DNA from: Spirulina sp. SIO3F2
GTDB lineage: Bacteria > Cyanobacteriota > Cyanobacteriia > Cyanobacteriales > Spirulinaceae
Reading direction: 5' to 3'
DNA length: 64,000 bases
NCBI GenBank assembly: GCA_010672165.1
Contig: JAAHHN010000006.1
Coordinates: 1-64,000, forward strand
Both the position numbers and the translations under genes were made by a program. Within the stretch, counting starts at the first letter, position 1. The number at the start of each line of letters is the position of its first letter. Positions 27,688 to 40,874 of this stretch are shown here, in pieces. A model generated the notes under the pieces. That model worked only from the letters and a program-made list of their open reading frames with translations, did not search any database and was not told the DNA's origin.

Positions 27688-29583
27688 TTAAAACCGATGC
27701 CCAATGCCGAACTGTAAACGGCTATCGCCCTGATTCGAGATACCAAAATCAGCCCGAATTACACCCAAAGGTGAATCAACACGAATACCTGCGCCATAAC
27801 CAAACCCGGAACCCGGCTTCGACTCATCCGCTTCGCCATCTTCCCCCAGCCATAAAGGACTCGACCCCATATCACTGGCAAAGTCAGCAAAGAGGACGCC
27901 TGTTAAAGGTGAAGAGAAGAGCGGCACGCGGTATTCCGCCGACGCCAGCACATAGCTGCGACTGGCCGCCAAGTCACCCGTGCCATAGCCCCGAACTGAG
28001 TTTGCACCCCCGACCAAAAAGAGCTGATGGGCGGGCAAGTCGCCGATGGTTGTGCCGCCTTGGAGATTAAACGCGATCACCTCCGGGTTGTCGTTGCTAA
28101 ACAAACTGGTGGCTTGATAGGTGCTGTAGCTAGCGTTGAGCTGGTTCATGGCAATATCACCGCTACCAACAGGGATCGATTGCTCGCTGCTAAGGCTAAA
28201 CACCGAGCCGGAGGTGGGATTGCGCAGATTATCCCGCTGGTCATTGGTGACTTGAGCCCGGATTGTGTAAAGGTCATCAATGCCCGTTTCGCTGGTGGAG
28301 AGGGCATTCCCGTATTGATCCACCGAGGCTAGCGAACCATCACTGTCTCGGACACTAACCCGACGATAGTTGACCCCCACAGCGGTTTGCCAGTCATCGA
28401 TCGCGCCCTGGACTTCCACACCGCCGCCAAAGCGACCTTCGCGGGGGCGATCGCCATTCTCTAGACGCACTTCATCATCAAAGCTGCTGGAAATCCCCCG
28501 CTGCCGAAAGGCATGGAGTTCATAGCCCAAGGTATCCGGCTGGCTGACTCGATAGGGGCTACCAAAGCGGGTTTCAAACTGGATATCTTTGGTGCCCAGT
28601 TGCAGATTGGCATTCAAGTTTTGCCCAATGCCGCCAAAGTTGCGATCGTTGTAGCTGAGTGTGCCGAAAACCCCGGACGCTTTGCTATAGCCACCGCCCA
28701 CATTCACCCCACGCGCAGAGGCTTCGCGCAATTCGTAGGTGACATTAACGCGATCGCCATTGTCCCGCAGGGCCACATGAGCCTGCTCAAACAGTCCCAG
28801 TTGATAGAGTTGCGCTAAATCTTCCTGAACCTGCGCCACGGTAAACACATCCCCTGGCTGGATACCGAGATAGCGGTGGACAAAGTCCGGCTGGGTACGG
28901 CCATCTGTCAGTTGTCCTTCTTCATCGATAAAGGCTACATCAACTTCCGCCACAATCCCCTCTTGCACATTCACCAGGAGACTCCCATCCGGCCGTGCTT
29001 GTACATCTTTAACCTTAGCGATCGCATAGCCTTCGTCTTGATACCACTGGTTGACCTGAGCAATGCCCTGATTAATTGCACTCGGTTGCACTGCTTGACC
29101 CATTTGGTCAGCAAAGAGATTTTGAGCCGTGGCGGTGGAGAGCACCTCAGCATCAACCAGTTGGACGCGATCGATAACTACCGGCGTGAGGTTGTATTGC
29201 ACATCCCAACCCTGATCATTGGGGACAGCGGCCACCTGCACCTCTCTAAACAGTTGGGTGGCACGGAGGGCAGCCACATCTGCTTCGATTTGCTCGTTGC
29301 TGGTAGGGCGACCCGCTTGGGTGCTCAGGGTGTTGTAGGCAATTTGAGTCAGTTCTGGAGAAGCGCCTGTGACATCCACTTGCGTCGCCAGAACAGCTAA
29401 GTCATTGGAGAGAGCGGCGGGGGGAACCTCGGCAGCAGCTTGCAAGTTTGGCTCAGGCTGCTGGCTGAATTCAGGCTGCGCATCGATGGTTACGGGAGTA
29501 ATATCTTGGGCAGCAGCGGTAGGAGCGATGCCCATAGCAACAGGGGCGATCGCAGCAACGGAAACAACAGCAGCACGCATCAT
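27688..29583 (-). CDS. BamA/TamA (Omp85) family outer-membrane protein
   Basis: About 631 residues from the ATG at 29583, which has GGAG ten bases upstream and begins a signal sequence (MMRAAVVSVAAIAPVAMGIA). Two or three POTRA domains follow (PELTQIAYNTLSTQAGRPTS, VDRVQLVDAEVL, VAEVDVAFIDEEGQ) and then a 16-strand barrel with GGYSKASGVFGTLSYNDRNF and the lid motif VRGYGTGDLAASRSYVL, ending in FGIGHRF. It inserts proteins into, or moves material across, the outer membrane. A longer frame back to 29820 would overlap the divergent TPR gene and is not preferred. It is not a TpsB-type transporter. Confidence 0.85.
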   Translation of the reverse strand: MMRAAVVSVAAIAPVAMGIAPTAAAQDITPVTIDAQPEFSQQPEPNLQAAAEVPPAALSNDLAVLATQVDVTGASPELTQIAYNTLSTQAGRPTSNEQIEADVAALRATQLFREVQVAAVPNDQGWDVQYNLTPVVIDRVQLVDAEVLSTATAQNLFADQMGQAVQPSAINQGIAQVNQWYQDEGYAIAKVKDVQARPDGSLLVNVQEGIVAEVDVAFIDEEGQLTDGRTQPDFVHRYLGIQPGDVFTVAQVQEDLAQLYQLGLFEQAHVALRDNGDRVNVTYELREASARGVNVGGGYSKASGVFGTLSYNDRNFGGIGQNLNANLQLGTKDIQFETRFGSPYRVSQPDTLGYELHAFRQRGISSSFDDEVRLENGDRPREGRFGGGVEVQGAIDDWQTAVGVNYRRVSVRDSDGSLASVDQYGNALSTSETGIDDLYTIRAQVTNDQRDNLRNPTSGSVFSLSSEQSIPVGSGDIAMNQLNASYSTYQATSLFSNDNPEVIAFNLQGGTTIGDLPAHQLFLVGGANSVRGYGTGDLAASRSYVLASAEYRVPLFSSPLTGVLFADFASDMGSSPLWLGEDGEADESKPGSGFGYGAGIRVDSPLGVIRADFGISNQGDSRLQFGIGHRF

Positions 29584-29766
29584 CTTGGGTTTTCTCCATA
29601 ATCTGGACAGGATAGATGTGATGACGGGCGTAAGTTGCGCGGGTTGCGACGGCTGTGGCAGCTCGGGGGGTGGCACAGGTTTCGGGATGCCGGGTTTGGG
29701 GTTCAAAATTGCTAGTGTTGAAGTAACTGCAATTTTGCGGATGCTGCCCATTGCCCCGATCGCGCC

Positions 29767-31071
29767 ATGACTCGTCAGCCTGAACACCTTATGCAGCAAT
29801 ATGCCGAACGCCTGCTGCAACTGCGCCCCAATCTCCGCCAGCTCCCAGAACCAGCGGATTTAGACGCGATCGCGCTAGATGTGGGGTTGAGCTTGGACGA
29901 TTTAGCGCTGCTACGTCAACGGGTCGAAGATCATGTGACCCGAGCTGAAGGCTACAGCGAGTTCCGGCGTTGGGACGACGCGATCGCAGAACTGGAACAG
30001 GCTACTGCTCTTGACCCCCTCAACCTCAAAACCCTCTATCAACTCGCAGACACCCATCGTCATCGCTATACGCAACGGGGCAAACGGCGCGATCGCAATG
30101 CTGCCGCCCATCTCGCTCACCAATGCTTGCAGCTTGACCCCAGTTTCCGGCCAGCCTTGGTGTTATTGGATGAACTGGAGCAACCCCGAGGGGTACTCAA
30201 ATGGCTGCGATCGCCTGCCGCGGGCTTCACTGCCATCATGCTGGTTGGTCTCACTGGCGCAGGCTATGGCTTATGGACAGCGCGGCATGACATTACCCTC
30301 CCCTGGCTTGAGCCTACATCCGTAAATCCTCGCCCAGTTCCCACGCCGACTGTGCAATCGGGAACTCAGGAATTGAAAATACCTGTGGAGCTGATTACGC
30401 CCCCTGAACTACCGGGTTTAACCCTTGACCAAGTCACCTCTCGACTTACAACTTACAGCAGCGGTAAATCTTTCTACAAAGTGAAATTGCTACTGGTGAA
30501 TGAGAGCGATCAAGAACTAGAGAAGGTGAGTGCGGTGTTGACGTTGCTGGATGACCGGGGGAAAGCGATCGCCACCCATAATAAAGCACTGCTTGATACC
30601 TACGAAGCCCCTTTACGACCCGGCGATCGTCATGCGTGGGATTGGCTCAAGGAAACCCAAACTAGTGTTAGCACCGTCCAAATTACGGTACAAACTGTGG
30701 AATCAGTACCTGCTGCAACGCGCTACAGCCCCGGTCGTCCAATTGAGTTGCAATGGCAGACCGAACCCCCTGCGGATGTGGCTATTCAGCTGACAGAACG
30801 CCGTTCAGGAACCCGTGAGTCTTGGGGCTCAAACTTTTCCCATGAAGCCGAATTAGTCTTTGAAAATGTGGGGACATTGCCTGTACGAGGGCTCAAGGTG
30901 CGAGTACGACATTATGATGCCGCAGGCGACACGCTCCTCAGCAAAGAACGATATGTGGTGACGGGTCAAGATCCGTCGCTCTTACCGGGGCAGTCACGAC
31001 GACTCAAGGCGCTAACAACAGGTTTACCCCAGAATTTTCAATATGAAGTGGTGGTAATCGAAATGAAGTAG
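29767..31071 (+). CDS. TPR membrane protein with FxLYD-like domain
   Basis: A 434-residue protein. N-terminal tetratricopeptide repeats (GYSEFRRWDDAIAELEQATA, LDPLNLKTLYQLADTHRH) lie in the cytoplasm. A single membrane helix (AAGFTAIMLVGLTGAGYGLW, near residue 160) follows. The external part has a strand-rich FxLYD-like domain (YKVKLLLVNESDQELEKVSA) and a second similar region. It is probably an envelope scaffold. It diverges from the Omp85 gene, with which it may share a regulatory region of about 180 bases. Confidence 0.7.
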   Translation: MTRQPEHLMQQYAERLLQLRPNLRQLPEPADLDAIALDVGLSLDDLALLRQRVEDHVTRAEGYSEFRRWDDAIAELEQATALDPLNLKTLYQLADTHRHRYTQRGKRRDRNAAAHLAHQCLQLDPSFRPALVLLDELEQPRGVLKWLRSPAAGFTAIMLVGLTGAGYGLWTARHDITLPWLEPTSVNPRPVPTPTVQSGTQELKIPVELITPPELPGLTLDQVTSRLTTYSSGKSFYKVKLLLVNESDQELEKVSAVLTLLDDRGKAIATHNKALLDTYEAPLRPGDRHAWDWLKETQTSVSTVQITVQTVESVPAATRYSPGRPIELQWQTEPPADVAIQLTERRSGTRESWGSNFSHEAELVFENVGTLPVRGLKVRVRHYDAAGDTLLSKERYVVTGQDPSLLPGQSRRLKALTTGLPQNFQYEVVVIEMK

Positions 31072-31321: not shown

Positions 31322-33952
31322 ATGGTGATGCAGCAGTCAAACTGGGTTCGTTCAATACAGTTTTTGCTCCTAGGGCGGGTCGGCAGCACAATCGGTAGTG
31401 TTGCGATAAGCGGTTTCACGATAGGTAGTTTCACGATCGCGCCGCCCCTTATGGCGCAAACCATCAATGCAGATGGCACCGTTGGCACTACCGTCAGTGG
31501 TGCTGGCCCCTTCACCATCACAGGCGGCACGATCCAAGGCACAAACCTCTTCCATAGCTTCACGGACTTTTCCCCCACCACAGCGGCCACCACCTTCGAC
31601 CTCAACAACGCCAGTTATGGAGGGACAGCCAGTGGCATTACCGCCATCATTAACCGGGTCACGGGCGGCAATATCTCCAATATGAATGGCCTGCTACAAG
31701 TGCTGGGTGGAGCTGATCCAGATTTCTTTTTAATTAATCCCAACGGGATTGTTTTTGGCCCCAATGCTCAGCTCGATCTCAATGGCTCTTTTATTGGCAG
31801 CACTGCCAACAGTATTGTGTTTCCAGAGGGCCTGGAATTTGCTGCTAGCGACACAACGGCCGCACCACTTCTAACCATTAATCGTCCCGTCGGTCTCCAG
31901 ATGGGCAGCGATCCCGGCAGCATCGCGGTCAACGATGTGGGTCATGATTTGACTCGACAGCTTTTTCAACCCACTGTCCGTTCCATGCTCACGACTTCGC
32001 CGTTACAAGTGGCGACGGGCCAAACTCTAGCACTGATAGGAGGAGATGTTGATCTAACTGGTGGTGTTTTGATGGCCGAAGGGGGCAACATTGAATTGGG
32101 CACACCTCACAATGCCACTGTGGGTTTAACGCCTGGGACAACAGGTTGGACAGTCGATTATGCATCGGCTACCAATATCTTCGGTGATATCACTCTAATG
32201 CAACAGGCCTTACTCGATGTCAGTAGTGATGGAGCGGGAACCGCGGCAGGTTCGACCCGGTTATTTGGCGCCAACGTTGCTTTATCAGAAGGGTCAATTG
32301 TCCTGAGTCAGAATTTAAGCAGTCAACCGGGTGGGGGCATTCAAGTGGATGCCACCGACACTGCTCTCCTGGGCACATCCGCCTTGACTACCGATGCCAA
32401 TAGTTCCCTACGAACCGAGACGGCTGGCTTAGGGCGGAGTGGTGATATTGAGGTTTACGCTGGACTGCTAGAAATGCAAGATTCAGCACGACTACAAACG
32501 CGTACTTTTGGTTCCGGTGATGCAGGTCGGGTAACGGTTGCGGTAGATAATACGTTTAATGCGTTGGAGGAATCATTCTTCGGCTCCATTACCTACAGCA
32601 TGGGCAATGCCGATAATGTGAAGTTGCAAGCGCAAACCCTAAATGCGTTGGATGGCTCCATTCTCGGCTCCTTTACCCTCAATAATCCATTTAGTCCTGG
32701 GCCAACAGGTGCAGCGGGAGATGTGGCGATCGCCGCCGACCAGATTAATGTGCAGGGCACAAACTCAGAGTTTTCATCGGGTGCGGGTTTAGGCTCCGTG
32801 TCCTTTGGTACCGGCCGGGGTGGCAATGTAACCGTTAATGCTCGACGGATTGATATTAGTGATGGGGGCCGGATTTCGACGGAGATTGCCAACTCAGGGG
32901 ATGCAGGCGACCTTAATATCACTGCCACTGAGCGAATTATCATCCGTGATACTCCTGCAACGGGTGAAGAAACTGGCATCCTATCCAATGGCATGATTGA
33001 ATCGCCTGCTACACGGGCTATATTTGGTTTGCCCGCTATTCCCACTGGTGGCTCTGGCAATATCAATATTCAAACGCCCTATCTGGAGGTAGGTCAGGAT
33101 GGCTTAGTTACTGCCCGCAATGAGGGGACGGGGGATTCTGGCAATATCAATATCAGCGGTGATGTAGTTTATCTCAATGAAGGGGGCCACTTAAGCACAT
33201 CCACTTTTTCTGGTGAAGGAGGGGGGATTAACCTCAATTTGCAAACACTCCTGCTCTTGCGGCGTGGCAGTTTTATTTCTACTGAAGCAGGCGGAACAGG
33301 CAATGGCGGCAATATCAACATCTCTGCCCCAGTGATCGCGGGTTATGAAAATAGCGACATCATTGCCAATGCCTTCCAAGGGAATGGGGGGAATATCACC
33401 ATCACCACCCAAGGGATTTTTGGCTTGGCATTCCGCGATCGCCTCACTGCCGACAATGACATTACTGCCAGCTCTCAATTTGGCGTCAACGGCACGTTAA
33501 CGATCAATGAGTTTAGCCTCAACCCCAGTTCGGGTTTGGTGGAGCTGGCGATCAACCTGAGTGATGCCAGTGATCAGGTGAATGGGGCTTGCAATGCCAC
33601 GGGGACGAGCGAGTTTATTGCCACGGGACGCGGCGGTATTTCACCTGCACCCACCAGCCAAAATGTGGATTTGCATTGGCAAGATATCCGCGATCTCAGT
33701 CCCTTTTGGGACACCACCACACCCAGCTCCGCGATGCCGCAACGACCTGTTCCAACGGCAAAAATCAGAGAAGCAACGGGGTTCCAACAGTTGGCCAATG
33801 GGCAAATGGCTCTGGTAGCGCGAGTGCCCCAAGCACCGGATTGGCAGTCGACGGCAACTTGCGGAATGCAAATGGAAACATCGGCGCTTCCTGTGCCGAG
33901 TTGGAATCAAAGCAACCAACCTGTAACCCCCTTACCAAGGGGGTCGGCGTAG
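31322..33952 (+). CDS. Two-partner-secretion exoprotein with haemagglutinin N-terminal domain
   Basis: An 876-residue protein. A signal segment ending PPLMAQTI leads to the TPS domain, with FHSFTDFSPT and the hallmark DFFLINPNGIVFGPNAQLDL around residues 135-155. The body is a beta-helix of repeated strands such as GSGNINIQTPYLEVGQDGLV and GDSGNINISGDVVYLNEGGH. A CNATGTSEFIATGRGG stretch begins the C-terminal region typical of cyanobacterial CHAT-linked exoproteins. It is exported by a TpsB porin, which is absent from this window. The last residues (TPLPRGSA) are encoded by a dispersed palindromic repeat. Confidence 0.85.
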   Translation: MVMQQSNWVRSIQFLLLGRVGSTIGSVAISGFTIGSFTIAPPLMAQTINADGTVGTTVSGAGPFTITGGTIQGTNLFHSFTDFSPTTAATTFDLNNASYGGTASGITAIINRVTGGNISNMNGLLQVLGGADPDFFLINPNGIVFGPNAQLDLNGSFIGSTANSIVFPEGLEFAASDTTAAPLLTINRPVGLQMGSDPGSIAVNDVGHDLTRQLFQPTVRSMLTTSPLQVATGQTLALIGGDVDLTGGVLMAEGGNIELGTPHNATVGLTPGTTGWTVDYASATNIFGDITLMQQALLDVSSDGAGTAAGSTRLFGANVALSEGSIVLSQNLSSQPGGGIQVDATDTALLGTSALTTDANSSLRTETAGLGRSGDIEVYAGLLEMQDSARLQTRTFGSGDAGRVTVAVDNTFNALEESFFGSITYSMGNADNVKLQAQTLNALDGSILGSFTLNNPFSPGPTGAAGDVAIAADQINVQGTNSEFSSGAGLGSVSFGTGRGGNVTVNARRIDISDGGRISTEIANSGDAGDLNITATERIIIRDTPATGEETGILSNGMIESPATRAIFGLPAIPTGGSGNINIQTPYLEVGQDGLVTARNEGTGDSGNINISGDVVYLNEGGHLSTSTFSGEGGGINLNLQTLLLLRRGSFISTEAGGTGNGGNINISAPVIAGYENSDIIANAFQGNGGNITITTQGIFGLAFRDRLTADNDITASSQFGVNGTLTINEFSLNPSSGLVELAINLSDASDQVNGACNATGTSEFIATGRGGISPAPTSQNVDLHWQDIRDLSPFWDTTTPSSAMPQRPVPTAKIREATGFQQLANGQMALVARVPQAPDWQSTATCGMQMETSALPVPSWNQSNQPVTPLPRGSA
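33927..33943. repeat. CCCCCTTACCAAGGGGG palindrome, copy 1
   Basis: An inverted repeat inside the last codons of the exoprotein gene. A reverse-oriented relative lies at 34103-34121. This CCCCCTTGGTAAGGGGG family is common in cyanobacterial intergenic DNA; here it forms the end of a reading frame. Confidence 0.6.
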
Positions 33953-34102
33953 CCGGGGGGATGAGTAATGTCAAAGTTGCAATTGCCCAAACGTTGGTGG
34001 TCGGTGCGTTCTGCTACTCGCTTTGCAAGGGCTATGTCAACGCTAAAATACCCGACGCGAATACGACTTGTCTGCTCATTTCTGTACCCGCAATCCCCCC
34101 TT

Positions 34103-34121
34103 CCCCCCTTGGTAAGGGGGG
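34103..34121. repeat. CCCCCTTGGTAAGGGGG palindrome, copy 2
   Basis: Reverse-oriented relative of the repeat at 33927-33943, followed by GTGACGCCG as the first copy is followed by TCGGCGTAG on the other strand. The two copies flank about 160 bases of non-coding DNA. Confidence 0.6.
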
Positions 34122-34172
34122 TGACGCCGCGAGCGGCTGGGATGGTTTTTAGATTCGTGTTTGAGCAGTTGT

Positions 34173-34193
34173 GTAGGGTGGGCATTGCCCACC
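34173..34193. repeat. Dispersed palindrome GGTGGGCATTGCCCACC, inverted copy
   Basis: Third copy of the 21-bp unit of 4038-4058 and 11224-11244, here in the opposite orientation (GTAGGGTGGGCATTGCCCACC). Confidence 0.7.
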
Positions 34194-34335
34194 AAATCAA
34201 GGGTTTCATACCGGATTACAGAACTCTAGCGATAGATCAGGAAGTGAGGGTTGAGCGGAGTCGAAACCCGGTTTTGAATCATAAAGCTTCGTCTATAGTT
34301 TTAAAATTTGAATTTGGTATCAGGAGAGCAATATC

Positions 34336-36942
34336 ATGATGCGATCACGCCTCCAATTTCCCCTACAAACCCTCCGACGCTATGGACGACAATGTTTAGC
34401 CTTTAGCTTTGGGCTGTTGCTGACCTGGATAGTTGCACAAGGAACAGTGCAAGTTGCCGCCCAAACCCAATCCCCTGTAACAGACTCAGACACCCCGATC
34501 GCCCAAGCCGCCCCTGACCCAACCGATGCCCTAACGCAAGGCCGCCGTTACTATCAGCAAGGCCGCTACGCCCAAGCCCAACAAGCCTGGGAGCAAGCCG
34601 TAACAGAATTTGCCCGGAACGGCGATCGCGCCCGCCAGGCCTTGGGTCTAAGCTACTTAGCGATGGTGCATCAAGATTTGGGAGATTGGTCAGCGGCGGA
34701 AAAAGCGATCGCTCAGAGCTTAGCCTTGCTCTCTCAAAATTCGGGTCAGTTCCCCACCATTGTGCTAGCTCAGGTTTTAAATACCCAAGCCAGCTTACAG
34801 TTCAACCAAAGTCAGTTTCAGCCCGCCTATCAAACCTGGCAACAGGCCCAAGCCCATTACACCGCAGCCGGAGACCAGCTTGGGGCTTGGGGCACACAAA
34901 TTAATCAAGCTCAAGCTCTCAAAGAACTGGGTTTTTATCGTCGAGCTACACAGATGCTGTTGGCTTTGAATACAGACCTCGCTGAATTACCGGATTCGGA
35001 GTTAAAGCTCTCCGGTTTGCAGACCCTGGGTAGTGCTCTGCAAGCGGTGGGGAATACCCCGATGAGCTATCAAGCGTTAGAGCAAGGGCTCACGATCGCT
35101 CAGGAATTAGGAGCAACACGCCAGATTAGCCGCCTGCATACCCAGATTGGCCGATTGGTGGCACAGCTCGGCGATTTGGATCGGGCGCTGGCCTATTTCC
35201 AAACCGCAGCCCGAGTTGCGGATCAAGCCATCGATCAGCTCCCCGCCAATTTGGAACTATTGAAGATTTATCGTTTGCAGTCCCGCTGGTCTGCGGCTGG
35301 TGCGATCGCCCCCCAACTCTATGAGCAGTTGGCCACCCTGCCCCCGAGCCGCACCCAACTTTATGGTGTGATTAACCTCGCTCATCAAGTCCAGCAATTG
35401 CCACCCGATACGCTGGGTCTGAGTTTCACCCAACTGGATATTCTCCTGCGCGATGCTGCCACCACCGCCGCGCAATTCCAAGACCACCGGGCGATCGCCC
35501 ATATCCTGCGCGAACGGGGCAATCTCTACGCTTTAGCTGAGCAACCCAGCCAAGCGATTGAGCTAATGGAACAGTCTGTCACCCTAGCACGGGCGCTGCC
35601 TGCGGAGGATGTGCTCTCGCAATCAGCTTGGCGCTTGGGACAACTGTTGGGAGCGTCGGGAGAGCGGGATGGGGCGATCGCGGCTTATATCGAAGCCGTC
35701 CAAGCCTTGCAATCGCTGCGGGGGGATTTAGTGGCGATTAACCAGGATCTGCAATTTTCGTTTCGGGAAGGGGTTGAACCCGTGTATCGAGAACTGGTTT
35801 CCCTGTTGCTGGCGACCCCCCAGCCCAGCCAGACCGAACTAGAGCAAGCACGCAACACGATTGAAGGCTTACAACTGGCGGAACTGGATAACTATTTTCA
35901 AGAAGCCTGCGCGGATCTCGAAGCCCAGAATATTGACCAAGCTGATCCGGCGGCGACGGTGTTTTACCCGATTATCTTGCCCGATAAGCTAGCGGTGATT
36001 CTGGCTCAAGCAGGGCAACCGCTGCGCTACTACCAAACTGCAATTCCCCAAGCGCAACTAGAGCAGCAACTCGATCAGTTATTGATGGATTTGCATCCAG
36101 CGGCGGATTATGAAAAGCGTCTTGCTAATGCTGGGCAGCTTTATGATTGGTTGATCCGGCCAGCCCAAGCGCAGCAAGCCTTGCACAACACTAAAACCTT
36201 GGTCTTTGTGTTGGATGGCATGTTACGGAATATTCCCATGTCGGTGCTCTATGATGGCGAGCACTATTTAATTGAGCAATATGCGATCGCCTTCTCACCG
36301 GGTTTGCAATTGCTTCAGGGCCAACCGTTGAGCGATCGCAACTTGGATGCGGTGGTGGGGGGGATTAGCGCCGCACGGGGTCAGTTTCGGGCGCTACCGG
36401 AAGTGGAGCGGGAAGTGGAACGCATTGCCCAACAAACAGATTCCACCACCTTAATCAATGCCGAATTTACCAGCGCTGCGGTGAGCCAGGCCGTGCAAAC
36501 CCGACCGATTGATGTGGTGCATCTGGCGACTCATGGTCAGTTTAGCTCTAACCCTGAAGAAACATTTTTCTTGACCTGGAACGGCCGGATTAATGTTCGG
36601 GAATTGGCCGACATTTTGCAAAATCGCCAGCAGGCGGAGGGTAAACCTATTGAGCTACTGGTGCTGAGTGCCTGCGATACTGCAACGGGAGACGATCGGG
36701 CAACCTTGGGGTTGGCGGGGTTAGCGGTGAAATCGGGTGTACGTTCTACGGTCGCCACTCTCTGGCCGATTAAAGATCAAGTGGCGGCACAATTAATGAT
36801 CGACTTCTACGAGCAGTTACTGACGCCGGGGGTGACACGCGCCGAAGCCCTACGCCAAGCCCAACTGCGCTTGCTGGCCCAACCCGATTATCAAGACCCA
36901 TTTTTTTGGTCGCCTTATATCTTGGTGGGGAATTGGCGTTGA
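34336..36942 (+). CDS. CHAT-domain protein with TPR repeats
   Basis: An 868-residue protein. An N-terminal signal/membrane segment (CLAFSFGLLLTWIVAQGTVQ) is followed by many TPR units (GRRYYQQGRYAQAQQAWEQA, and others to about residue 480). The C-terminal CHAT domain has the caspase-like catalytic dyad His733 (VVHLATHGQFSS) and Cys780 (LLVLSACDTATGD), then VRSTVATLWPIKD and the end FWSPYILVGNWR. It is a probable periplasmic or membrane-attached cysteine protease. The gene follows the exoprotein, as in many cyanobacteria, and may process or regulate it. The dyad is intact. Confidence 0.9.
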   Translation: MMRSRLQFPLQTLRRYGRQCLAFSFGLLLTWIVAQGTVQVAAQTQSPVTDSDTPIAQAAPDPTDALTQGRRYYQQGRYAQAQQAWEQAVTEFARNGDRARQALGLSYLAMVHQDLGDWSAAEKAIAQSLALLSQNSGQFPTIVLAQVLNTQASLQFNQSQFQPAYQTWQQAQAHYTAAGDQLGAWGTQINQAQALKELGFYRRATQMLLALNTDLAELPDSELKLSGLQTLGSALQAVGNTPMSYQALEQGLTIAQELGATRQISRLHTQIGRLVAQLGDLDRALAYFQTAARVADQAIDQLPANLELLKIYRLQSRWSAAGAIAPQLYEQLATLPPSRTQLYGVINLAHQVQQLPPDTLGLSFTQLDILLRDAATTAAQFQDHRAIAHILRERGNLYALAEQPSQAIELMEQSVTLARALPAEDVLSQSAWRLGQLLGASGERDGAIAAYIEAVQALQSLRGDLVAINQDLQFSFREGVEPVYRELVSLLLATPQPSQTELEQARNTIEGLQLAELDNYFQEACADLEAQNIDQADPAATVFYPIILPDKLAVILAQAGQPLRYYQTAIPQAQLEQQLDQLLMDLHPAADYEKRLANAGQLYDWLIRPAQAQQALHNTKTLVFVLDGMLRNIPMSVLYDGEHYLIEQYAIAFSPGLQLLQGQPLSDRNLDAVVGGISAARGQFRALPEVEREVERIAQQTDSTTLINAEFTSAAVSQAVQTRPIDVVHLATHGQFSSNPEETFFLTWNGRINVRELADILQNRQQAEGKPIELLVLSACDTATGDDRATLGLAGLAVKSGVRSTVATLWPIKDQVAAQLMIDFYEQLLTPGVTRAEALRQAQLRLLAQPDYQDPFFWSPYILVGNWR

Positions 36943-37373
36943 GTCTGTCTAATTTATCGCAAGCCACCCATATTTATGGTCATGCCCAGCGAGCAATTTC
37001 TTGCGAAAAAAGAATAATAAATGTTTTTTTGTCCGGATTGGGCTGAGTCATCCTTGAAGGGTGTATGCAATTAACCTATCGGTTCTTGCTCCCTTGAGCT
37101 GGGTTGATAGTTTTAGGCAAAACTGAATCCAGATATCTAGCTCAATCGCTGATGTTTAGGGGTGCGATCGCCAATTGGACAAACTAAAAAATCAATTCTT
37201 AACCTGGACTTTTCACGTGATGAAAACTATTGAGCCAAATCACTGACGACTACGGTGAAATTGTTTATTATATAAACTGAACGCTCTATTTGAGTAAAGT
37301 TCAGGGATGGCATCCTCACCAGTATTCCCTCACCTTTTAAGACTGACCTGTTCGCATTCGGAGTTTCACCCCC
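36943..37373. other. Intergenic region before the DUF928 gene
   Basis: 431 bases with no gene or clear repeat. It includes a single HIP1-like site and AT-rich segments near 37240-37300 that could hold the promoter. Confidence 0.45.
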
Positions 37374-38510
37374 ATGCAATTCCCCAACCGCCGCTTATTT
37401 TCCCAGCCCTTGGGTTTGCTACTCTTGGCAAGCTCACTGCTGAGTCCCAGTCTATTAACCCATCATGCGCAGGCTCTGACCCCAGATGGGGAGGGAAGTC
37501 GCGCTCAGGTTGCCTCTTTTCAGGACGCCGACTGGAACTTGATTCCTTATCCCGACCAAAATGCACCCACCCAAAGCCGGGGCGGGGCGTCTCGTAGTGG
37601 AGAGTGGAACTTAATTTCTTACCCAGATCAAGGTGCGCCCACCCAGAGCCGCGGTGGGGCCTCTCGAAACGGAGAATGGAATCTAATTCCTTATCCTGAC
37701 CAGGGCACACCGTCTCAGAGTCGCGGTGGCGCATCCCGAAACGGAGAATGGAACCTGATTCCCTATCCCGACCAAGGCACACCATCCCAAAGTCGCGGTG
37801 GCGCGTCCCGAAACGGAGAATGGAATCTGATTCCCTATCCTGACCAAGGCACACCATCCCAAAGCCGAGGTGGGACATCCCGTGATGGGGAATGGAACTT
37901 GGTTCCTTATCCTGACCAAGGTATCCCTGCCCAAAGCCGTGGTGGGTCTTCTCGCCGTACAGATTTGCCCCAAGATATGGTCACCCTGATGCCTGAGATT
38001 GGCTACGGTCTCACCGTCTCCAGCCATCCCACGTTTTTCTTCTATTTACCCGATTCTAATGCTCAGGCGGGTTTGTTCCGCTTGAAGGATGCAGAGGGTA
38101 AAGTCCTCTATGAACAAGCGATTGAGCAACCGAATCAGGCCGGAATTGTGGCGATCGCCCTGCCGGAGCAGTTGCCTGAATTAACTATTGGAGACTATTA
38201 CCAATGGTATGTTGTCCTCCAATCTGAGGGTAAATTCCGGCCCTCCAGCCCCTTTATCGATGGTTGGGTGCAACGGGTTGAGCCAACTCCGCAGGTTCAG
38301 CAGGCTGAGGCGGGTGATAATGTCTTGGGTTATGCCCAAGCTCTCACCCATCAGAATGTGTGGTACGACACCCTGACCGCCATCAATACCATCCGCACCG
38401 CACAACCCCATTCCGTTGAGGCTCAACAGCAATGGCAAGCGTTACTCACCTCTGTCAGTTTAGAGGCGCTGGTTGATGCCCCCGTGGTGGTTCAAGGCAC
38501 ATCGCATTAA
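37374..38510 (+). CDS. DUF928 protein with six 24-residue tandem repeats
   Basis: A 378-residue secreted protein. A signal peptide (RRLFSQPLGLLLLASSLLSP) is followed by six tandem 24-residue units between about residues 53 and 196. Each has the form GEWNLIPYPDQG, then TPSQSRGGASRN. The DUF928 domain follows (GYGLTVSSHPTFFFYLPDSN ... YYQWYVVLQSEGKFRPSSPF, then IDGWVQRVEP). DUF928 genes typically sit next to CHAT and haemagglutinin genes in cyanobacteria; the molecular role is unknown. The repeat block is unusual: DUF928 proteins normally have only one such Arg/Gly-rich linker. Confidence 0.85.
   Translation: MQFPNRRLFSQPLGLLLLASSLLSPSLLTHHAQALTPDGEGSRAQVASFQDADWNLIPYPDQNAPTQSRGGASRSGEWNLISYPDQGAPTQSRGGASRNGEWNLIPYPDQGTPSQSRGGASRNGEWNLIPYPDQGTPSQSRGGASRNGEWNLIPYPDQGTPSQSRGGTSRDGEWNLVPYPDQGIPAQSRGGSSRRTDLPQDMVTLMPEIGYGLTVSSHPTFFFYLPDSNAQAGLFRLKDAEGKVLYEQAIEQPNQAGIVAIALPEQLPELTIGDYYQWYVVLQSEGKFRPSSPFIDGWVQRVEPTPQVQQAEAGDNVLGYAQALTHQNVWYDTLTAINTIRTAQPHSVEAQQQWQALLTSVSLEALVDAPVVVQGTSH
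37530..37961 (+). repeat. Six in-frame 72-bp tandem repeats
   Basis: Six copies of a 72-bp unit inside the DUF928 gene. Copies 3, 4 and 5 are almost identical at DNA level, while the outer ones are more diverged. This pattern is expected from recent slippage or unequal recombination, so copy number may vary between strains. Confidence 0.9.
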
Positions 38511-38765
38511 GTGCTTTGAACACAGAATAATTAGATCTCTTGCATTAGTTGGTCTGGTGAACAGATTGAAGTATCTGCGCCTGTTCTACGGTTTGACCTC
38601 TGAGATAACCGTAGTGCAGGCATCTTTTGCTGGAACTTGATGAATAATCATCAAGACAAATACGATGAAGTGGTGTTTTGGAGACATTCAAATTTGCATA
38701 ACGGTAGCTCCCCCCTCATGATTGAAGTGATGCTTCAAGTGCTATGCCAACGTTGTGGTTAGAAT
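38511..38765. other. Intergenic region before the CHASE2 cyclase gene
   Basis: 255 bases without a recognisable gene, repeat or strong promoter match. Confidence 0.4.
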
Positions 38766-40874
38766 ATGTTTCGCCGCCCCTTCCAGTTGCCTTTATCTGT
38801 CCGGTCAACGGGGCCGTTGTGGTTGGGGATTATCCTTTCAATCATCACCATCGATCACTGGGGGCTGCTCCATCGCTTAGAGTGGGGGGTTCGGGATCAA
38901 TGGGTTCAGCTCCACACGCTTATGAACCAAGAGTCGGATATCGTTATTGTCACGATTGATGAGCAAGATATCCAACAAATCGGTGATTGGCCAATCCCAG
39001 ATCGGGATTTAGCGCAGGTCTTACGCAATATTCATGCCCAAGGCCCCACTGCCATTGGGATGGATCTCTATCGGGATTTGCCGGAGGAGCCTGGCCATGA
39101 AGAACTTCTAGAGGTCTATCGCACAGTTCCCGAACTGGTGGGTATTGAAAAAATTGCAGGCGATCGCGTCCCCCCACCCCCCGTTTTACAAGAGCAGGGT
39201 CAAGTGGCAATCGCGGATCTGGTGCCTGACCCCGATCGCACCATTCGTCGCGGTCTGCTTTCCGTAACAGATGCGGCCGATGGCGATCGCTTTAAATTGT
39301 CCCTAGGCGCGAGCGTGGCACTGCAACATCTCGCCAAACGCCATGGCATTACCCCCAAGTCCATCAATGACAAGCGTCAACTCTTACAGTTGGGTGAAGC
39401 TCGCTTGATTCCCCTCCGGCATGGGGCGGGCGGTTATGCCAATGAGGATCTGGAGGGGTATCAAATCCTCCTGAATTGGTGGACTAATACGGATGGCTAT
39501 ACCCAGGTGCGGTTTCGAGATGTGCTCGACGATCGCATTTCGGCTGACCTGATGCGCGATCGTATTGTTTTGATCGGCTCGATCGCAAGCAGCACCAACG
39601 ATTTAATCGATACGCCTTATAGCACTGCCTTATTTGAAGCCCACACGCCTATGCCTGGGGTGATGATCCATGCCAATGTAGCCAGCCAATTGCTCCAAAG
39701 CGCCCTCACGGGTCGCCCCGCCCTCCGCAGTTTTACCCAACCGGGGCAATGGCTTTGGATTATGCTTTGGGCAACCTGGGGCATCTGGGGGAGTGGGCTT
39801 TGGGTGCAAACTCAAACCACACAGCAATGGTGGCAAAGCCGGGTGTTGTTATTTACCCTCCTGAGCTTGGCGGGTTTGGGTCTGGGGAGCTATTGGGCCT
39901 TCGGTTGGAGCATTGTTATTCCCATCACCGCCCCCAGTCTGGCGTTTGTTTTGGGGGTGGTGGGGTCGAGTAATGCCTATAAACAAAAGTGTTTAATTGA
40001 GGCGAATCAGTCCTTAGCGAGCTATGCCCAGCAGTTAGAAGCGCTCAACGCAGCCTATGAACATTTTGTCCCTGCTCAGTTTTTAAATCTACTCGAAAAA
40101 GACAGTATTGTTGATGTGGAGCTGGGCGATCAAACGGAACGGGAAATGACGATTCTGTTCTCTGATATTCGCAACTTCACCCGTCTTTCGGAGCAAATGA
40201 CGCCTGCTGAAAATTTTGCGTTTATTAATCGCTATTTAAAATGTATGGAGCCCCAGATTAAACGACATCGGGGCTTTGTGGATAAGTATATTGGGGATGC
40301 GATCATGGCGTTATTTCCCCATACTGCTGATGATGCCCTGTCCAGCGCGATCGCGATGCTCCAAGCCCTAAAAGACTATAACAACTTCGAGCATGACCCC
40401 AGCCAAACTCAGTCTCTGAGTATCGGGATTGGTTTGCATACGGGCTATTTAATGTTGGGTACCGTGGGGGGCTCAGATCGTATGGATGGTACGGTAATTG
40501 GCAATTCTGTTAATCTGGCGGCTCGGGTAGAAGAACTCACCAAAGAATATGGGGTTTCGCTATTGATTACCCAGCAGACTCTTGCTGCTTTAGAGAAAGC
40601 CCAAGACTATGATCTGCGGTTTGTGGATCAACTCAAAGCCCGGGGTAAAACAGAAGCGATCGCACTCTTTGAAGTCTTCTCGGCCGATCCCCCTGACTTG
40701 AGAACGGCCAAGAATTTCACGAAGGGAAAATTCGAGCGGGCGGTATTGTTATTTAAAAGAGAAAAAATTCAGGAGGCGAGTCTATTGTTTCAGGATTGTT
40801 TGATGTCCCATGATGGCGATCGCGTGGCGGCTTATTATGTTAGAAAATGTGAGGAGCTTCAAGATTTTGTTTGA
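38766..40874 (+). CDS. CHASE2-domain class III adenylate/guanylate cyclase
   Basis: A 702-residue membrane protein. An N-terminal helix leads to an extracytoplasmic CHASE2 sensor (VIVTIDEQDIQQIGDWPIPD ... GPTAIGMDLYRDLPEEPG ... DRIVLIGSIASSTND), then three membrane helices (about residues 325-405). A class III catalytic domain follows with metal-binding Asp467 (FSDIRNFTRLSEQM) and Asp511 (YIGDAIMALFPH) and the pair IGLHTGYLMLGTVGG and GNSVNLAARVE. It should make cAMP or cGMP; the choice was not decided. CHASE2 cyclases often accompany CHAT/DUF928/haemagglutinin genes, which suggests sensing linked to surface-protein production. Confidence 0.9.
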   Translation: MFRRPFQLPLSVRSTGPLWLGIILSIITIDHWGLLHRLEWGVRDQWVQLHTLMNQESDIVIVTIDEQDIQQIGDWPIPDRDLAQVLRNIHAQGPTAIGMDLYRDLPEEPGHEELLEVYRTVPELVGIEKIAGDRVPPPPVLQEQGQVAIADLVPDPDRTIRRGLLSVTDAADGDRFKLSLGASVALQHLAKRHGITPKSINDKRQLLQLGEARLIPLRHGAGGYANEDLEGYQILLNWWTNTDGYTQVRFRDVLDDRISADLMRDRIVLIGSIASSTNDLIDTPYSTALFEAHTPMPGVMIHANVASQLLQSALTGRPALRSFTQPGQWLWIMLWATWGIWGSGLWVQTQTTQQWWQSRVLLFTLLSLAGLGLGSYWAFGWSIVIPITAPSLAFVLGVVGSSNAYKQKCLIEANQSLASYAQQLEALNAAYEHFVPAQFLNLLEKDSIVDVELGDQTEREMTILFSDIRNFTRLSEQMTPAENFAFINRYLKCMEPQIKRHRGFVDKYIGDAIMALFPHTADDALSSAIAMLQALKDYNNFEHDPSQTQSLSIGIGLHTGYLMLGTVGGSDRMDGTVIGNSVNLAARVEELTKEYGVSLLITQQTLAALEKAQDYDLRFVDQLKARGKTEAIALFEVFSADPPDLRTAKNFTKGKFERAVLLFKREKIQEASLLFQDCLMSHDGDRVAAYYVRKCEELQDFV

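Follow-up and report, generated by a model that had tools for sequence, protein, structure and literature searches.

A conserved gene module that is uncharacterised in the literature searched was found in the cyanobacterium Spirulina sp. SIO3F2. It comprises genes for a two-partner secretion (TPS) exoprotein, a TPR-CHAT protein, a DUF928 protein and a CHASE2 receptor. Its best, though still tentative, reading is a signalling pathway of the cell envelope in which proteolysis would change the output of the receptor. The window, that is, the whole stretch of DNA analysed, comprises 64,000 nucleotides (positions 1 to 64,000 of contig JAAHHN010000006.1, C410 in our numbering) and contains the following features:

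31322-33952, + strand: TpsA-type exoprotein, 876 aa, with an N-terminal TPS domain at residues 48-313
34336-36942, + strand: TPR-CHAT protein, 868 aa (PF12770), a putative secreted protease, separase/Csx29-like
37374-38510, + strand: DUF928 protein, 378 aa (PF06051), predicted to be secreted
37533-37946, + strand: 72-bp tandem repeat inside the DUF928 gene (TRF)
38766-40874, + strand: CHASE2 receptor with class III cyclase output, 702 aa (PF05226, PF00211)
27688-29820, - strand: Omp85 protein, BamA/Toc75-type (TIGR00992, PF01103)

Open reading frames and Pfam matches bore out the preliminary description, which had placed the four genes at these positions and in this order. All four frames are on the + strand, separated by intergenic gaps of 255-431 bp, and the four families are certain by Pfam. 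The exoprotein matched PF05860 (E 6.4e-45; 154.5 bits against a curated cut-off of 33.5), its sole Pfam domain, and TIGR01901 (E 2.2e-16). Its TPS domain contains the NLFHSF segment and, being N-terminal and above the cut-off, is the secretion domain expected of a TpsA protein. The CHAT domain (PF12770, E 6.7e-62) is C-terminal in a protein with TPR repeats, and the DUF928 gene product matched PF06051 with an E value of 1.1e-47. The receptor matched PF05226 (CHASE2, E 3.8e-61) and PF00211 (Guanylate_cyc, E 3.1e-20), and its segments FSDIRNF, DKYIGDAI and GNSVNLAAR, read by eye, form a class III cyclase signature. A perfect inverted repeat with 17-nt arms, 160 nt apart (33927-34120), overlaps both the TPS gene, at its end, and the gap that precedes the CHAT gene; it is possibly a small mobile element or repeat. 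The gene of an FxLYD-domain protein (29767-31071, + strand) is divergent from the listed Omp85 frame, with an overlap of 54 bp.

Gene neighbourhoods were scanned with home-made HMMs built from proteins of the own genome. The CHAT-centred sample consisted of 39 stretches out of the best 52 matches (down to G164), chosen by similarity; two matches from the own genome, L194, L204, L209, L211 and seven more were left out. DUF928 genes occurred in 31 of these stretches, CHASE2 genes in 30 and TPS genes in 22, and some of the eight stretches lacking DUF928 were cut by contig ends. The order CHAT-DUF928-CHASE2 was found on one strand in 26/39 stretches and the full order TPS-CHAT-DUF928-CHASE2 in 13/39, in line with the earlier claim that the group is a familiar one in cyanobacteria. 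Numerous genera and families, spread over one taxonomic order, share this arrangement. The 60 DUF928-centred stretches, not a random sample because they were taken from the better-scoring among the matches listed, contained CHASE2 in 39, CHAT in 30 and TPS in 26 cases, with the three-gene order in nine and the four-gene order in seven. A CHASE2 gene was located within 350 bp of the DUF928 gene, on the same strand, in 33 of the 60. Since ten of these pairs had neither CHAT nor TPS, DUF928 and CHASE2 would appear to be the core pair, with CHAT and TPS as additions. Of 98 genomes taken from the phylum, 31 had DUF928, and the own genome encodes 22 such proteins.

The stretches around gammaproteobacterial CHAT relatives (L066, L068, L069) contained no DUF928 or CHASE2 genes. 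Most of the neighbours scanned there encode housekeeping functions, cell-wall proteins or a YDG-repeat protein, and one had no match. In a Methylococcaceae bin, also outside the Cyanobacteria, a short TPS gene comes after a CHAT gene (L067:161-2712). Literature searches, whose coverage of subscription journals was mostly lacking, returned no paper on the four-gene group, on CHAT domains together with hemagglutinins in cyanobacteria, or on CHASE2 together with filamentous hemagglutinin; DUF928 was named in a single one of the papers covered.

The DUF928 protein combines a signal-like N-terminus and a disordered repeat tail with, according to the model, an Ig-like sandwich and helices. In the AF2 model, built from three sequences (mean pLDDT 57), the tail was below 50 and the domain of beta-sandwich and helices was confident. 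The best solved match was the C-terminal domain of MtxA from magnetotactic bacteria (PDB 4z29; Foldseek E 1.7e-5), with a Z score of 11.2, 150 of 169 residues aligned and an rmsd of 4.0; the next entry had a Z score of 7.7. MtxA is described as an Ig-like and TPR-like protein that is probably periplasmic or extracellular, without obvious known homologues, and mtxA as followed by a CHASE2-adenylate cyclase gene (PMC4439547). For the window protein, the model likewise predicts an Ig-like plus TPR-like fold, and a CHASE2-cyclase gene is directly downstream (38766-40874). Searches of PDB chains with the single sequence and with a 25-sequence profile did not find 4z29. A link by sequence was therefore dropped, and because no similarity was found, we regard DUF928 as MtxA-like in fold and not as a member of the MtxA family. 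That DUF928 is a partner of CHASE2 seems more likely than not.

The tail is encoded by a tandem repeat that the preliminary description had missed (TRF: period 72 bp, 5.8 copies, 80% matches, 37533-37946). It specifies about six units with a GG[AS]SR core, in the window four times GGASR and once each GGTSR and GGSSR. In most DUF928 relatives the motif is single-copy. Of 149 distinct DUF928 proteins, 114 had the core ahead of the domain (shuffled sequences: mean 11.4, maximum 21) and 3 had it inside the domain part. The strict form GG[AGS][ST]R occurred in 2/900 unannotated and 0/100 CHAT frames of at least 200 residues and in 5/97 TPS frames. An alignment of 25 DUF928 proteins has nine invariant columns, the motif arginine among them.

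Gene context was counted for 123 of these proteins, leaving out the 26 of the 149 that came from short loci only. Where the DUF928 gene directly follows a stand-alone CHAT gene, 27 of 42 had GGASR-type cores, against 9 of the 81 others; three or more motif copies were present in 14/42 and 5/81, respectively. These statistics are confounded by descent. Some core match was found in 33 of 51 DUF928 genes with no CHAT gene near. They include a second repeat-type DUF928 gene (L133:5206-6492, - strand; G000:C246) with eight core matches, whose stretch has a CHASE2 gene and lacks CHAT and TPS. Four GGATR matches in TPS proteins had given rise to the idea that the tail mimics the TPS entry segment GG..RG.NLFHSF. 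This segment was recognisable in 126 of 140 TPS frames (90 unfused, 36 fused), and the idea was rejected because arginine stands there in only 11 of the 90 unfused proteins.

The output of the receptor is swapped between a cyclase and a hybrid histidine kinase while the CHASE2 part stays. A hybrid histidine kinase was found in eight of the ten receptors scanned and a cyclase in the other two; the receptors with cyclase output are those of the window, L195 and L254. Six of the eight kinase receptors adjoin a DUF928 gene with at least three core matches, and the other two adjoin a two-core (L226) and a single-copy (L258) DUF928 gene. Among 18 repeat-type DUF928 genes with a close CHASE2 gene on the same strand, 15 were paired with a long receptor without cyclase, two with another receptor form and one, that of the window, with a cyclase.

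In the window CHAT protein, the catalytic His (in HLATHG) and Cys (in LSACDT) are both intact. About 110 CHAT matches were found in the own genome, and both residues were kept in 52 of the 53 long CHAT domains examined there; in the exception, a contig end cuts the domain before the Cys. A signal-like N-terminus was recognised by eye in the window protein and in most of the listed CHAT relatives. Separase and Csx29 were among the best Foldseek matches of the AF2 model (built from eight sequences; mean pLDDT 74.5, with a weak part of pLDDT <50 at residues 778-810 beside the Cys). Separase was matched with Z scores of 20.6-22.1 over 605-681 residues and Csx29 with 19.4-19.9 over 541-546 residues; TPR-only proteins scored higher (e.g. 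LGN, Z 25). With its His/Cys pair and its predicted TPR plus caspase fold, the protein resembles the CHAT proteases of clan CD. In the own genome, a 1786-aa protein of POTRA domains, TPR and CHAT (L135:5831-11191, - strand; G000:C268) adjoins DUF928 and CHASE2 genes; CHAT is there joined to outer-membrane assembly domains.

The whole-genome profile search found 77 TPS domains over the cut-off in the own genome. TPS and CHAT share one frame in at least 35 of these 77 TPS frames, a lower bound since many contigs end inside such genes. The fusion exoproteins are up to 2,283 aa long and many stand in tandem arrays (examples: G000:C428 (L095, L096), C144 (L115), C157 (L107), C395 (L105), C83 (L102)); three of six scanned also contain DUF4347. 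At least 13 of 18 relatives have such fusions too, as judged by matching contig and frame length among the matches listed. That both fused and separate arrangements occur supports a functional tie between exoprotein and CHAT.

These findings could be accounted for by the following mechanism. The exoprotein would be exported by a TpsB encoded elsewhere in the genome, most likely at C54:6920-9172 (- strand). The TPR-CHAT protein would cross the inner membrane by means of its signal peptide and function, in the periplasm or on the surface, as a protease resembling separase. The client of this protease would probably be DUF928, with the flexible N-terminal tail, the repeated GG[AS]SR and the invariant arginine, whose MtxA-like body (Ig-like plus TPR-like) would dock on the CHASE2 domain outside the cytoplasm. 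When the tail is cut or bound, the cyclase output of the receptor would change. In an economical version, the secreted CHAT protein would act on DUF928 or on the exoprotein, with a change in receptor output as the result. As a complete explanation, this envelope signalling module with a path from proteolysis to the receptor is a serious candidate to which we give a little less than even confidence. Action of CHAT on DUF928 is conceivable and somewhat less probable than that; the role of the exoprotein as upstream sensor is more tentative still; and it is doubtful that the motif arginine is the cut site. A preference for arginine exists in some peptidases of clan CD, including separase. The CHAT fold does not predict such specificity, because Csx29-type relatives cut between A and S, L and D, and M and K and not after arginine (PMC11106740). 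The preliminary description had proposed a surface-sensing or regulated-proteolysis pathway. Gene order, the His/Cys pair, the signal-like N-terminus and the swapped outputs make this the best reading; that the missing TpsB is an anomaly was not supported.

Alternatively, the repeat tail might be a docking ligand for the TPR superhelix of CHAT, the true substrate being the exoprotein or something else. The N-terminal part of the CHAT model does match the peptide-binding TPR proteins LGN, Rap and NprR (Z about 22-25), and the TPS-CHAT fusions place protease and exoprotein in one chain. However, TPR folds match one another generally, and the motif is present in many DUF928 genes without CHAT nearby, so that we consider docking rather unlikely. 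The four genes might also share no common pathway, with surface and signalling genes multiplying together and linked by local duplication. The large expansions in the own genome (77 TPS, about 110 CHAT matches, 22 DUF928) and the occurrence of DUF928 in other settings are consistent with this. It is made unlikely, slightly more so than docking, by a gene order kept across so many genera and families and by the exchange of receptor outputs around a constant CHASE2 part.

A TPS-delivered effector or contact-inhibition system, with the caspase-fold domain as the weapon, is improbable. Caspase-like domains do serve polymorphic toxins, as processing peptidases or C-terminal toxins (PMC3482391), and the own genome holds the 35 or more TPS-CHAT fusions, many in tandem arrays. 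The CHAT protein of the window, however, is separate from TPS and bears a signal-like N-terminus and TPR of its own, nor did any gene of immunity type turn up in the window. The combination of a TpsB gene, a C-terminal toxin and an immunity gene that would mark a CdiBAI system was not found in the locus. A PADLOC scan gave only weak TPR/BovA matches for CHAT, and the cyclase domain matched Pycsar cyclases.

As had been noted, the window lacks a TpsB gene: the whole-genome search gave no ShlB/TpsB match there or elsewhere on contig C410, and therefore none is located just outside the window on that contig. The preliminary description had suggested looking for TpsB homologues in the genome, and ten ShlB matches were located at about nine loci, one of which is split into two pieces. 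A TpsB is thus available in the genome, though not encoded adjacent to the exoprotein. An adjacent tpsB gene in the same operon is usual, not universal, and its absence is no reason to deny TpsA membership. In the own genome and 18 relatives, TPS matches (E up to 0.001) were at least as numerous as TpsB matches in 19/19 genomes and more numerous in 18/19. TpsB genes were present in 2 of the 39 stretches around the nearest relatives of the window CHAT protein and in 8/60 DUF928-centred ones. The absence, which had been presented as anomalous, is unremarkable given 77 TPS domains, only about nine TpsB loci and a TpsB gene that rarely adjoins the module; we do not regard it as an anomaly.

The window exoprotein probably uses a TpsB encoded in trans, elsewhere in the genome. 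The TpsB tree (19 rows) showed two clades with a starred split. In the TPS tree (133 rows; domains <150 residues and exact duplicates left out; bootstrap not settled), a single clade of 66 rows (100/100) included all 39 TPS-CHAT fusions, and the ten TPS rows beside or fused to clade-B TpsB all fell opposite it. The window TPS was placed in a starred ten-row clade together with six of the TPS genes on C61, both C54 TPS genes and one L250 gene, the latter on a long branch. The TpsB gene at C54:6920-9172 (- strand) adjoins the two C54 genes of this clade and is, judging from sequence, the best candidate transporter of the window exoprotein. Relaxed pairing of TpsB transporters and exoproteins is known from Burkholderia (PMC10449530). 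The C61 array (G000:C61, L086) has seven consecutive TPS genes and no TpsB; the six placed above are followed by a last one that is cut by the contig end. For C54 and C61 as a single TpsB-TpsA array, no exact terminal overlap of at least 15 bases was found in the three end pairings tried. At two further loci (L213:1092-5417 and L239:294-4685), TPS and TpsB are in a single open frame of about 1,450 aa that adjoins CHAT, DUF928 and CHASE2 genes. The porin-like gene near the group is indeed of the BamA type (TIGR00992 304.6 bits, PF01103 191.8 bits), and export of the exoprotein by this Omp85 is highly improbable: it is the nearest outer-membrane barrel gene, but it scores as BamA/Toc75 and not as ShlB, is on the opposite strand with nothing to suggest an export role, and dedicated TpsB genes adjoin same-clade TPS genes in the genome.

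A many-to-few pairing of exoproteins and TpsB would explain the apparently missing transporter, and this puzzle is ordinary; the part worth testing is the link of DUF928, MtxA and CHASE2. CHASE2 receptors are widespread, and we know of no ligands for them. DUF928, with a solved look-alike that also precedes a CHASE2-cyclase, is a direct candidate for a CHASE2 partner. CHAT proteases are known above all from CRISPR defence, and a large CHAT family with secretion signals or exoprotein fusions would place caspase-like proteolysis outside the bacterial cytoplasm. More speculatively, and with little confidence, DUF928 and MtxA might form one structural class of periplasmic CHASE2 partners, tuned in cyanobacteria by a secreted, separase-like CHAT protease via an amplifiable arginine-motif tail, in a protease-activated receptor pathway in which the number of repeats determines sensitivity.

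Among known systems, the module resembles two-partner secretion with the Hmw1B-type TpsB of cyanobacteria in its TPS domain with NLFHSF and in the ShlB-family TpsB genes of the genome. It differs in having no TpsB beside the exoprotein, in the ratio of about nine TpsB loci to 77 TPS domains, and in its constant neighbours, a secreted putative protease and a receptor. With Csx29 (Craspase) and separase, the window CHAT protein shares a predicted architecture in which a TPR superhelix precedes a CHAT domain of caspase fold containing His/Cys, whereas it has a signal-like N-terminus, lacks a CRISPR or cohesin partner and is linked to TPS, DUF928 and CHASE2 genes. Like other CHASE2 receptors with cyclase or histidine kinase output, the receptor has the same sensor domain and exchangeable outputs; here, in contrast, it is genetically linked to a putative periplasmic partner, DUF928, and to a secreted CHAT protein. 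The closest likeness to DUF928 is with MtxA, which has a signal peptide, an Ig-like plus TPR-like body and a CHASE2-cyclase gene next to it; the two differ in that no sequence similarity is detectable and that the accessible text on MtxA mentions no CHAT or TPS neighbour (PMC4439547).
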